Part shown: positions 4,432 to 7,419 of the stretch, piece by piece | How positions within the stretch are numbered: the stretch's first letter is position 1 | Layout: every line of letters starts with the position of its first letter | Source of the DNA: Chlorobiaceae bacterium | GTDB lineage: Bacteria > Bacteroidota > Chlorobiia > Chlorobiales > Chlorobiaceae | DNA length: 40,767 bases | Direction: 5' to 3' | NCBI GenBank assembly: GCA_013334525.1 | Contig: JAAXXK010000001.1 | Span: 1-40,767 of the forward strand | Notes under the pieces: generated by a model | What the model was told of the DNA's origin: nothing | The model's input: only the letters and a program-made list of their open reading frames with translations | Database searches by the model: none | Translations under genes and position numbers: made by a program

Positions 4432-5517
4432 TCAGTTAAGCAGCATGGTCAGCCTGTTGGTGTCGTTCACACGCTGATAGTCGATGCTTTGGGTCATGCT
4501 GCCGATGCCTGTCGAGCCTGATTCATCGGAGGAGAGCGATTTTTCGAGCGGGTTGAACGGCTTTCCTGTATTTTCGAAAACCAGCTCGACACTCTCTTTC
4601 TTTTCCGAATAGGCGAGAGTCATCTCGACCGGTGATGTGGAGAGAACCGGCGTATACATCTTCAGCATCTCCTCTACGATCGTCAGCAGGTTCTGTCGGG
4701 TTTTCATCGGCAGTATCTGCTTTTCACAGAAGGCCCCTATTTCGGCATGCAGGGTGTAGATGTCGTAAGTGGGGGAGGTTATGTGATGGTTGATGCTTCT
4801 TATCCTGTTGATGAACGCTTTTGTTTTCTCCTTCCGGGGGTTGTTGAAGAGCTCATCGGGGGTTCCGCTCTCATAGATTACCCCCTCGTCTATGTAAAGC
4901 ACGCGGTGGGAGACATCCCTTGCGAAGTCCATTTCATGGGTGACGATCACCATGGTCATGCCCCCCCTTGCCAGGCGTCGAATTACCGAAAGAACCTCGC
5001 TGACCATCGTCGGGTCGAGCGATGAGGTCGGTTCGTCGAACAGGATGATCTGGGGATCCATGGTCAGGCATCTGGCGATGGCAACCCTCTGTTTCTGGCC
5101 TCCGGAGAGTTCATCCGGGAAGTTGCCGGCTTTATCGGCCACCCCGACCAGCGTGAGCAACTCGATCGCCTTGCGTTCTGCCTCCGCCCTGCTTTTGCCC
5201 AGCAGTTTGATGGGGGCCAGTGTCAGGTTTTCCATGACGGAGAGGTGATCGAACAGGTTGAATGACTGGAACACCATGTTCATCTTCTGGCGAATCTTCG
5301 GTACGTTGGTTTTTGGGTCGAGCAGGTCGACGCCATCGATCCGGATTGAGCCGCCGCTTGGGCGTTCAAGCAGGTTTATGCAGCGCAAAAGGGTGCTTTT
5401 TCCGCTGCCGGAGGGGCCGATGACCGAGATCACCTCTCCCTCCCTGATTTCGATGTTGACGTCTTTCAGGACGGAAAGCTGCCCGAAATTTTTCGAAAGA
5501 TGCTCTACCTTTATCAT
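4432..5517 (-). CDS. Amino-acid-type ABC transporter ATPase fused to a GHKL/RsbW-like domain
   Basis: A 361-residue protein. Residues 1-240 are a standard polar-amino-acid importer ATPase (GlnQ/HisP class): Walker A 'GPSGSGKST' 34-42, Q-loop Q84, signature LSGGQ 137-141, Walker B 'IILFDE' 157-162, H-loop H194. Such ATPases normally end near 240-250. Here residues about 248-361 continue as a domain patterned like anti-sigma-factor GHKL kinases: helix with 'LLTIVEEML' (N-box position), 'VFENTGKPFNP' (G1 box) and 'STGIGSM' (G2), ending 'NDTNRLTML'. The N-box asparagine is missing (K/M instead) and the G1 aspartate is E315, so ATP binding there may be lost. The gene overlaps the permease gene by 4 bp. 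The ATPase call is firm; the C-terminal domain call is pattern-based. Confidence 0.9.
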   Translation of the reverse strand: MIKVEHLSKNFGQLSVLKDVNIEIREGEVISVIGPSGSGKSTLLRCINLLERPSGGSIRIDGVDLLDPKTNVPKIRQKMNMVFQSFNLFDHLSVMENLTLAPIKLLGKSRAEAERKAIELLTLVGVADKAGNFPDELSGGQKQRVAIARCLTMDPQIILFDEPTSSLDPTMVSEVLSVIRRLARGGMTMVIVTHEMDFARDVSHRVLYIDEGVIYESGTPDELFNNPRKEKTKAFINRIRSINHHITSPTYDIYTLHAEIGAFCEKQILPMKTRQNLLTIVEEMLKMYTPVLSTSPVEMTLAYSEKKESVELVFENTGKPFNPLEKSLSSDESGSTGIGSMTQSIDYQRVNDTNRLTMLLN

Positions 5518-6446
5518 GCGCCTTGAACCTGCTTTCTTCTTGTTTTTGGATCGGCCAGCTTTTCGACATGCTCAATCGCGAGCATGACTACCCATGAGAT
5601 GAAAATATAGAGGATTGCCACCATGCATAGCGGGAAGAACGCGTCGAAGGTACGGCTGCGGATGATGTCGCTGGCCTTGGTCAGGTCCTGGACGGCGATA
5701 TAGCCGACAACCGATGTCATTTTGAGGAGTGAGATGAACTCCCCCTTGTATACCGGCAGGATGCGCCGGATGGTTTGCGGCAGGATGATGTAGAGAATCG
5801 TCCTGAATTTCGTAAATCCCATGGCGATGCCGGCTTCCATCTGCCCCTTGTCGATGCTGTTGATGCCTGCCCTGTAGATTTCGGCGACGTATGCGGCAAA
5901 ATTGAGGCCGAACGCGATGATGGAGACGATGACCGGGTTGATATCCACAGACGCGAAGACGACATAGTACATCAGCATCAGGGAGACCAGCAACGGGGTG
6001 CCTCGCTGGACAAAGATATAGGCTTTCGCCGGCAGGTTCAGGAGCGGGTTGCGCGACATTCGCATGAAGCAGACCAGTGCGCCGAGGAAGGTTCCCAGGA
6101 TGGTGGAAAGAACAGCGATAATGGCTGTGGTTTTCAGTCCCCTCACGATCAGGAGATATCGGTTTTCCTCGATAATGTTGCTTTGAAAGCTTTGGGCCAG
6201 GCCGGAAAGAAAGGAGGGCGTTTGGGGGATTGCCGCCCTGTCATGCAGGTGGGCTTCCGGTGCGGTGGCGCTTGTTGCGCCTGAAGCCGGTTTTTCGGTA
6301 CCAACGGTTTCGGCATGGGCGGATGGAGGCATCAAATATCGCCCTGCCGTGGCTGGCAGATATACCCCGTCTCCGAGGCAGAGCGCAAGGTGGATGCTTC
6401 CGCCAAGAATAAAGAGCAACAGATATCGTATGGTCGACTTTACCAT
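5514..6446 (-). CDS. Amino-acid-type ABC transporter permease with N-terminal extension
   Basis: A 310-residue inner-membrane protein. Residues about 95-300 are a HisM/GlnP-family permease: several membrane helices and the EAA loop 'EAGIAMGFTKFRTILYIIL' (about 204-222) that docks on the ATPase. The N-terminus is unusual: residues 1-45 look like a signal sequence (hydrophobic YLLLFILGGSIHLALCL, later 'PSAHAE'), followed by an Ala/Pro/Thr-rich linker to about residue 85. The family usually starts directly with the first permease helix, so this adds about 80 residues, perhaps an extra helix or a cleaved leader. It is the middle gene of the operon, separated from the binding-protein gene by 193 bp that hold a hairpin. 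Substrate is not readable. Confidence 0.9.
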   Translation of the reverse strand: MVKSTIRYLLLFILGGSIHLALCLGDGVYLPATAGRYLMPPSAHAETVGTEKPASGATSATAPEAHLHDRAAIPQTPSFLSGLAQSFQSNIIEENRYLLIVRGLKTTAIIAVLSTILGTFLGALVCFMRMSRNPLLNLPAKAYIFVQRGTPLLVSLMLMYYVVFASVDINPVIVSIIAFGLNFAAYVAEIYRAGINSIDKGQMEAGIAMGFTKFRTILYIILPQTIRRILPVYKGEFISLLKMTSVVGYIAVQDLTKASDIIRSRTFDAFFPLCMVAILYIFISWVVMLAIEHVEKLADPKTRRKQVQGA

Positions 6447-6639: not shown

Positions 6640-7419
6640 TTATTCCTTTACGAGGGCGGCGATGCCTCCGACGTAGTAGGGATCAGAGAAGAGTACCTGC
6701 TTTTTCCGTTCTTCAGTTATGGTGATGCAGGCGGCAATCATGTCGACTTTGCCGGACATCAGTGCCGGGATCATACCGCCGAAGTCCATGTTGACGACCT
6801 CGAGCCTCTTGCCGGCTTTGTTGGCAATGTGTTTGGCAAGTTCAATGTCATAGCCGACAACCTCCCCTGAGCCATCCACGAACGAAAAGGGTTCGGTCAC
6901 GCTTGCCGTTCCGAGCCTGAGCACTCCGTTTTTTCCGGTTGATGCGATTTTCGGCATCGGGGCAGGGCTGCCCGTTTTGGGGAACCAGCGTTTCATCATC
7001 TGATCGGTGGTGCCGTTATCCTTGAGCTCCTTTACCACCGAATCGATCGCCTGCTTCAGTTCCGGATTATCCTTTCGCACGGCAAATCCGTAGTTGTCGA
7101 CGGTGATCATCTCCTTGAGCACGACCATTCCCCCTTTTTTTGCTGCGATGTTCTGCAGTATCGGCTCATCATACGCAGCGGCATCGGCCTTTCCATCCTT
7201 GACGGCAAGGGCTGCATCCAGGACCGTGTTGAAATACTTGAATTTTGCAGTCGGCAGTTTTGAGAGCACAAGCTGGTCGGCAACGGTGCCGGTAGGGATG
7301 GCGAACTCTTTGCCTTCAAGCTGCTTCAGCCCGGTGACTTTCTCCCTTTTGGCGCATCCCGAAAGGCTCAGGCATGAGATCAACAATACAACGGCGATCC
7401 TGAAGCTATGGCTCTTCAT
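6640..7419 (-). CDS. ABC substrate-binding lipoprotein with permuted SBP_bac_3 halves
   Basis: A 259-residue periplasmic lipoprotein. The signal peptide ends in the lipobox LSGC with C22 as the lipid site. The order of parts is reversed relative to GlnH/HisJ-type proteins. Residues 30-146 match the family's second half ('LEGKEFAIPTGTVAD', 'KADAAAYDEPI', 'DNYGFAVRKDNPELKQAID', 'MKRWF'). After a Pro-rich linker (147-163), residues 164-259 match its first half ('GVLRLGTASVTEPFSF', 'VVGYDIELAKHIA', 'GKVDMIAACITITEERKK', 'VLFSDPYYVGG'). Both halves are complete, so this is a circular permutation and not a truncation. A strong ribosome site (AGGAGA, 7425-7430 on the minus strand) fixes the start. 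It is first in the importer operon. Confidence 0.9.
   Translation of the reverse strand: MKSHSFRIAVVLLISCLSLSGCAKREKVTGLKQLEGKEFAIPTGTVADQLVLSKLPTAKFKYFNTVLDAALAVKDGKADAAAYDEPILQNIAAKKGGMVVLKEMITVDNYGFAVRKDNPELKQAIDSVVKELKDNGTTDQMMKRWFPKTGSPAPMPKIASTGKNGVLRLGTASVTEPFSFVDGSGEVVGYDIELAKHIANKAGKRLEVVNMDFGGMIPALMSGKVDMIAACITITEERKKQVLFSDPYYVGGIAALVKE

Follow-up and report, generated by a model that had tools for sequence, protein, structure and literature searches.

A degenerate RsbW-type GHKL domain on an ABC importer ATPase, and the partner-switching genes found beside related fusions

Importer ATPases can carry C-terminal regulatory additions, as in the NIL domain of MetN, the CBS domain of OpuA and the regulatory domain of MalK. 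Partner switching, for its part, is known mainly as transcriptional control, and the SiaABCD system of Pseudomonas is reportedly a partner-switching system with a non-sigma target. One published account likewise presents partner switching mainly as transcriptional control, the phosphorylation of the STAS protein RsbV being set by a kinase and a phosphatase (PMC8256260). A STAS protein can also be the partner of an ABC ATPase: MlaF is bound by MlaB and depends on it for stability, and the abstract of that paper describes the post-translational regulation of ABC transporters as poorly understood (PMC7367683). Here we describe an importer ATPase fused to a degenerate GHKL domain of the RsbW/SpoIIAB type. 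A previous sequence-only reading had suggested that such a domain would give an undescribed mode of ABC control, and in agreement with it no title or abstract start in a literature search describes such a fusion, most subscription papers and all preprints being outside the scope of that search.

The window, a stretch of 40,767 nucleotides from a Chlorobiaceae bacterium, encodes on its minus strand (as for all window features below) a three-gene importer in the order solute-binding protein (6640..7419, read from 7419 to 6640), permease (5514..6446, read from 6446 to 5514; BPD_transp_1, 72.9 bits) and ATPase. The ATPase gene (4432..5517) is an open reading frame that runs from 5517 to 4432 with an ATG start overlapped by the permease stop codon, and its 361-residue translation was analyzed with Pfam and NCBIfam. 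Residues 1-239 are of the GlnQ/HisP type (domain boundaries 1-238, 4804..5517; Pfam ABC_tran, 127 bits). The NCBIfam GlnQ model covers the whole of residues 1-239 with 299.5 bits, under its 379-bit cut-off for the glutamine-specificity equivalog. The translation contains GPSGSGKST, LSGGQ and ILFDEPTSSLD, which we take to be the Walker A, signature and Walker B motifs. The N-terminal part is thus a complete GlnQ-type ATPase, as had been read from the sequence. Among the 80 loci kept from the homologue search, the closest protein is that of L001 (78% identity), with some neighbouring genes in common.

The ATPase is followed, almost without a linker, by a fused domain of 121 residues (241-361, 4435..4797). 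In the full-length AF2 model (pLDDT 90.0, pTM 0.74), the first strand of this domain (residues 239-246) lies almost directly after the last ATPase helix (230-236). At E ≤ 1 the only Pfam match of the window domain is HATPase_c_2 (E 0.0045; 17.4 bits, below the cut-off of 27.4), and the same family matches 9 of 13 homologous domains at E ≤ 1, with a best E of 9e-4. The AF2 model of the domain built from 13 sequences (pLDDT 90.4, pTM 0.83) has a Bergerat fold with anti-sigma topology. When it was compared with the PDB using Foldseek, all 14 matches at E ≤ 0.001 (TMq 0.59-0.76) were entries for the anti-sigma factors RsbW, SpoIIAB or SigF. Eleven of the 14 entries are complexes that include the STAS antagonist, and the identity of the chain was taken from the fold match. 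Moreover, hhalign matched the domain to eight RsbW-like kinases from fusion loci at 98.1%, with an E of 9.9e-14 that applies to that one profile pair. Structure prediction, fold search, profile-profile comparison and Pfam therefore agree, supporting a predicted Bergerat/GHKL fold of the RsbW/SpoIIAB type, and the fold assignment made from the letters alone holds. A NIL, CBS, TOBE or OB identity, which that reading had already thought improbable, is rejected, Pfam giving the window domain no match to any of the four. A chance extension of the ATPase reading frame is ruled out by conservation, constraint and predicted fold: the fused domain occurs in 12 of the 80 loci and in five genome samples, and it is under purifying selection, confirming the C-terminal run-on as a real feature.

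To describe the distribution of the fusion, the domain profile was searched in five whole-genome samples, whose group names are the MAG titles of their centre loci and many of whose genomes are metagenome bins in which single placements may be wrong. In the phylum of the window, 53 of 394 genomes had a match at E ≤ 1e-6 and 43 at E ≤ 1e-12, two of the latter being partial; within the genus of the window, 3 of 21 genomes carry the fusion. In the Clostridia (class of L012; 391 genomes), 34 genomes matched at E ≤ 1e-5, in many cases through SpoIIE-RsbW proteins, and the fusion reading frame was confirmed in 12 genomes, with G432 and G207 as further candidates and G175 cut by a contig end. The Verrucomicrobiota (phylum of L009; 240 genomes) gave 30 matches and 13 confirmed fusions, the Alphaproteobacteria (class of L008; 289 genomes) 11 matches, four of them strong and three confirmed, and the Gammaproteobacteria (class of L005; 274 genomes) three matches, all three confirmed. 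The retrieved set comprises 83 fusions from several phyla, covering the family of the window, other Bacteroidota, Verrucomicrobiota, Clostridia, and Alpha- and Gammaproteobacteria; this set does not include L265, which has a strong domain match from which ORF picking recovered no ABC fusion, or L198, which is truncated by a contig end. One fusion (L003 / L307), from a MAG titled Geobacter, sits inside the clade of the window family on the tree, so its contig may be misbinned. In seven of the 83 fusions the whole importer, from binding protein through permease and ATPase to GHKL domain, is a single polypeptide of 893-1170 aa (for example L012:2574-6086, L187:7653-10385, L188:5031-7712 and L199:5259-8714), a form met in Clostridia.

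GHKL is an ATP-binding fold, in whose kinases the N-box Asn binds Mg and the G1 Asp is needed for adenine recognition. By alignment with intact RsbW, the three motifs seen in the sequence-only reading are located at residues 277-288 (N-box region, 4654..4689, with Glu282-Glu283 kept), 314-323 (G1-like FENTGKPFNP, 4549..4578) and 333-342 (a degenerate G2-like segment, 4492..4521). The N-box Glu is Glu283. The column of the Mg-binding Asn reads Lys286, or Met287 when the gap is ignored, so this residue is absent as had been noted. The G1 Asp had been described as replaced by Glu, but its column actually holds Asn316, and the Glu that was named, Glu315, stands beside it. In a single MAFFT alignment of the 83 fusions with RsbW-like kinases, on which all these residue counts rest, 79 fusions retain the N-box Glu, 10 the Asn (nine of these belonging to the Verrucomicrobiota sample) and one the Asp, and no fusion has Asn and Asp together. 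In contrast, Glu, Asn and Asp are all kept in 18 of 18 standalone RsbW-like kinases of the fusion loci, as well as in five of five SpoIIE-RsbW proteins (two from fusion loci and three from other Clostridia). The G2 of the standalone kinases reads GGLG in 18 of 18, a string absent from the eight commonest in the fusions, the most frequent of which is DELG (10/83). The segment is poorly conserved in the fusions, most of all in the clade of the window; its difference between linked and unlinked fusions (15/31 versus 9/52, Fisher p 0.005) is confounded by descent and is not proof. Because Asn and Asp are mostly lost in the fusions and always kept in the standalone kinases, the fused domain is unlikely to work as a kinase. 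The Asn-bearing Verrucomicrobiota fusions may represent an intermediate state, which fits descent from an active kinase.

A STAS, RsbW or SpoIIE match lies within 5 kb of 31 of the 83 fusions and of none of 68 plain GlnQ-type loci, with a match threshold of E 1e-5 for the fusions and E 1e-3 for the plain controls. Restricted to loci that have about 5 kb of flanking sequence on each side, the comparison is 20/56 fusions versus 0/52 plain ATPase loci (Fisher p 3e-7), where the fusion loci are not independent, several coming from the same genome (G021, G031, G183, G293, G766) and many from one family, and the controls are mostly from Bacillota. The neighbouring matches share the strand of the fusion in 66 of 66 cases, a STAS gene lies directly downstream (≤ 320 bp) in 23 fusions, and an SS[AVS]GLR-type motif is present in each of the 27 STAS matches. 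All three parts are found near the fusion in L127, L274, L296, L297, L116, L259, L260, L262, L263, L252 and L187. Within the Verrucomicrobiota sample, L263 and L259 have the strict order ABC-GHKL, STAS, RsbW, SpoIIE, and L252, L260 and L262 also carry the three genes downstream. Within the window family, L127, L274 and L297 have SpoIIE upstream and STAS and RsbW downstream. An RsbW-like kinase is also present in L127, L272, L274, L296, L297 and L116. The L117 operon consists of a binding protein resembling the NMT1-type one of L116, a dCache-HAMP-SpoIIE phosphatase, a binding protein-permease, ABC-GHKL and STAS; in L116 and L117, the two loci whose phosphatases were scanned, the phosphatase has a dCache-HAMP sensor attached. 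In Clostridia, partner-switching parts are near the fusion, yet more scattered. Two near-identical importer and partner-switching operons (L118 and L119) lie about 206 kb apart in one single-contig genome. At L189:10820-12043 and L202:7809-8984, a STAS domain is fused to an APH-family (PF01636) phosphotransferase domain beside a SpoIIE-RsbW protein.

The other 52 fusions, some of them on short contigs, have no partner-switching match within 5 kb. They include the window gene, around which no STAS, RsbW or SpoIIE match was found within 5 kb, one side reaching only 4.4 kb to the contig end. The proposal that the domain binds an antagonist-like partner is favoured by the neighbours in relatives, though not by those of the window gene itself. 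The linkage label was placed on a tree of 79 fusions, which omits L119 and three short-contig rows; L191 was scored as linked even with its kinase and phosphatase more than 5 kb away. On this tree the label requires 14 changes, no fewer than 11 of which fall on well-supported branches; shuffling the label gave a mean of 24.6 changes, and none of 500 shuffles was as low as 14. Linked copies lie on both sides of the midpoint root, suggesting that repeated loss of linkage is likely and repeated gain possible, and the linked operon arrangement is probably ancestral.

The window belongs to a clade of 16 sequences (support 99/96), all without linked partners. Between the window and its closest relative, G014 (85% identity), dN/dS is 0.18 for the GHKL domain and 0.07 for the ATPase. 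Over 59 pairs with dS between 0.05 and 1 in both parts, drawn from 25 unlinked loci that belong almost entirely to the window's family, the medians are 0.22 and 0.078, and no GHKL pair reaches 1. As judged from these substitution rates, the domain in its unlinked form is kept by purifying selection, with weaker constraint than on the ATPase. In the genome search of G014 and G008, the other two fusion-bearing genomes of the window's genus, no SpoIIE match was found; each of the two encodes a STAS protein of about 200 aa and an RsbW-like protein, and a second STAS domain lies in a frame of about 590 aa, probably SulP. In G014, G000 and G008 (L312, L313, L315) the C-terminal tail of the STAS protein of about 200 aa is charged, and this protein is a possible trans partner of the fused domain. 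A STAS frame of 200-240 aa is present in all 11 genomes searched and is therefore not specific to the unlinked form. The genome of the window additionally has STAS, RsbW-like and SpoIIE genes in a cluster that, judged by eye, is exopolysaccharide-like. The STAS/RsbW copies of its contig C49 and of L120, L121 and L123 were set aside as belonging to such clusters, again by eye.

The binding protein of the window importer has circularly permuted lobes, with lobe II before lobe I. SBP_bac_3 matches it in two stretches, with the start of the profile at residues 167-258, and the permuted order was also found by an order test against canonical proteins. The sequence-only reading had asked whether the fusion always co-occurs with such a protein. 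It nearly does, in 79 of the 83 fusion loci; the four exceptions are L011, L276 and L278, with contig ends near that side, and L307, with a partial binding-protein ORF. The association is not exclusive. A collinear match to the permuted profile was found in 9 of 68 plain loci, seven of them being tandem canonical proteins matched across their junction, and a permuted protein stands beside a plain GlnQ-type ATPase in two (L023:1192-1977, L040:3485-4993), so a permuted binding protein can occur without the GHKL fusion. Many relatives have two to four binding-protein copies in tandem, fused to the permease, so the permuted order may stem from a cut within such an array.

On balance, we favour the reading that the fused domain is a pseudokinase on which a STAS protein docks to control import. 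The fold, the loss of catalytic residues, the recurrent neighbourhood and the purifying selection are computed; STAS binding, the effect on transport and the direction of the signal are what we infer. In the linked arrangement, the importer shares an operon with a SpoIIE phosphatase, an intact RsbW-like kinase and an RsbV-like STAS antagonist that carries the serine motif. How far the STAS protein is phosphorylated would depend on the kinase and the phosphatase; in its unphosphorylated form it would dock on the pseudokinase domain and alter the activity or assembly of the ATPase, and import would thereby follow the sensed signal. Docking might be either activating or inhibiting, and the importer may also report outward. 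In the clade of the window, the domain would be served in trans by STAS and RsbW-like proteins encoded elsewhere in the genome, or have been repurposed; docking in trans is possible in the genome of the window. The recurrent linkage in relatives suggests that cells may switch such importers on and off by protein docking.

The signal could also run the other way. That importers can act as sensors is known in general, and a substrate-bound or turning-over importer might expose or hide its pseudokinase domain, which would sequester or free the STAS protein and so pass the signal to the RsbW kinase and to whatever that kinase targets, be it a sigma factor or another protein. The STAS/RsbW/SpoIIE neighbourhood fits this equally, and the intact RsbW kinase of many loci could have a separate target, but in both scanned phosphatases the dCache-HAMP sensor already gives an input, and we regard a reversed signal as rather unlikely. 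Somewhat more room, though still at tentative strength, is left for a STAS-independent structural element that stabilizes or shapes the ATPase dimer, the link to partner switching being ancestral and now idle at least in the clade of the window. The unlinked state of that clade, the missing SpoIIE match in G014 and G008, the strand placed directly after the ATPase helix and the persisting purifying selection all fit such an element, which leaves unexplained both the recurrence of the linkage in distant groups and the related domains on other transporter families. Two further explanations carry little weight. A vestigial, decaying domain is very improbable: motifs are progressively lost in the clade of the window and the domain evolves faster than the ATPase, but dN/dS largely refutes pseudogene decay, and the alignment yields a confidently predicted fold. 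Least credible of all is a nucleotide sensor, in which ATP or ADP bound to the domain would gate transport according to the energy state. Nucleotide sensing had been among the roles first proposed and agrees with the general nature of the fold and with the widely kept N-box Glu, but the G1 Asp and N-box Asn are mostly missing and never found together, and G2 is degenerate; it is rejected because the ATP-site residues are lost.

In addition, RsbW-like domains are present on other transporters. L190, L191, L203 and L204 encode, beside a SpoIIE-type phosphatase gene, a MATE protein whose C-terminal domain is RsbW-like; of the two MATE proteins scanned, that of L190 has Pfam HATPase_c_2 above threshold and that of L204 lacks it. 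Asn is present in three of the four aligned MATE domains (L190, L203, L204, L011) and Asp in three, so these domains do not appear clearly dead. An SDF symporter in L187 and L010 has an N-terminal domain matching RsbW (95.4% in profile-profile comparison, two sequences), and an NCS2 permease in L118 and L306 has a C-terminal domain matching the fusion domain (83.1%, three sequences, one profile row sharing 11% identity with the first row). The profiles built for this analysis, searched at E 1e-4, missed the domains of the NCS2 and SDF proteins, as did Pfam, and only profile-profile comparison speaks for them. The NCS2 case seems less sure than the MATE and SDF cases, and the evidence for MATE, though uneven, is firmer than for the other two. 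The ABC, SDF and NCS2 proteins observed have mostly lost their ATP-site residues. Taken from few sequences, these cases suggest a general design. We give an even chance to the view that partner-switching modules directly control up to four unrelated transporter families, namely ABC amino-acid-type importers, NCS2 permeases, SDF symporters and MATE transporters, via fused RsbW-like GHKL domains, which would be a widespread, undescribed mode of post-translational transport control. If true, a phosphorylation switch would act directly on transport, joining partner switching to the regulation of ABC importers; the operons offer a small, testable set of parts, and the related domains seen elsewhere among transporters suggest that this could be a general principle.

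In comparison with known systems, the window domain resembles the anti-sigma kinases RsbW, SpoIIAB and UsfX (HATPase_c_2) in its Bergerat fold, topology, N-box Glu and profile similarity, and differs from them in being on an ABC ATPase, in having lost Asn and Asp, in scoring below the Pfam threshold and in having no known sigma factor target. The NIL, CBS and regulatory domains of MetN, OpuA and MalK have other folds, and Pfam matches the window domain to none of them. The SiaABCD system, whose SiaB-SiaC structure (6kko) ranked 15 in the PDB fold search, likewise has a SpoIIE-type phosphatase, a STAS protein and a GHKL kinase encoded together; in the fusion loci, in contrast, the transporter itself contains a further GHKL domain, a dead one. 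MlaFB also has a STAS protein as the partner of an ABC ATPase, but MlaB binds its ATPase directly, and that paper leaves its phosphorylation open (PMC7367683), whereas the fusions would use an added pseudokinase domain to receive the STAS protein, with a kinase and a phosphatase alongside.
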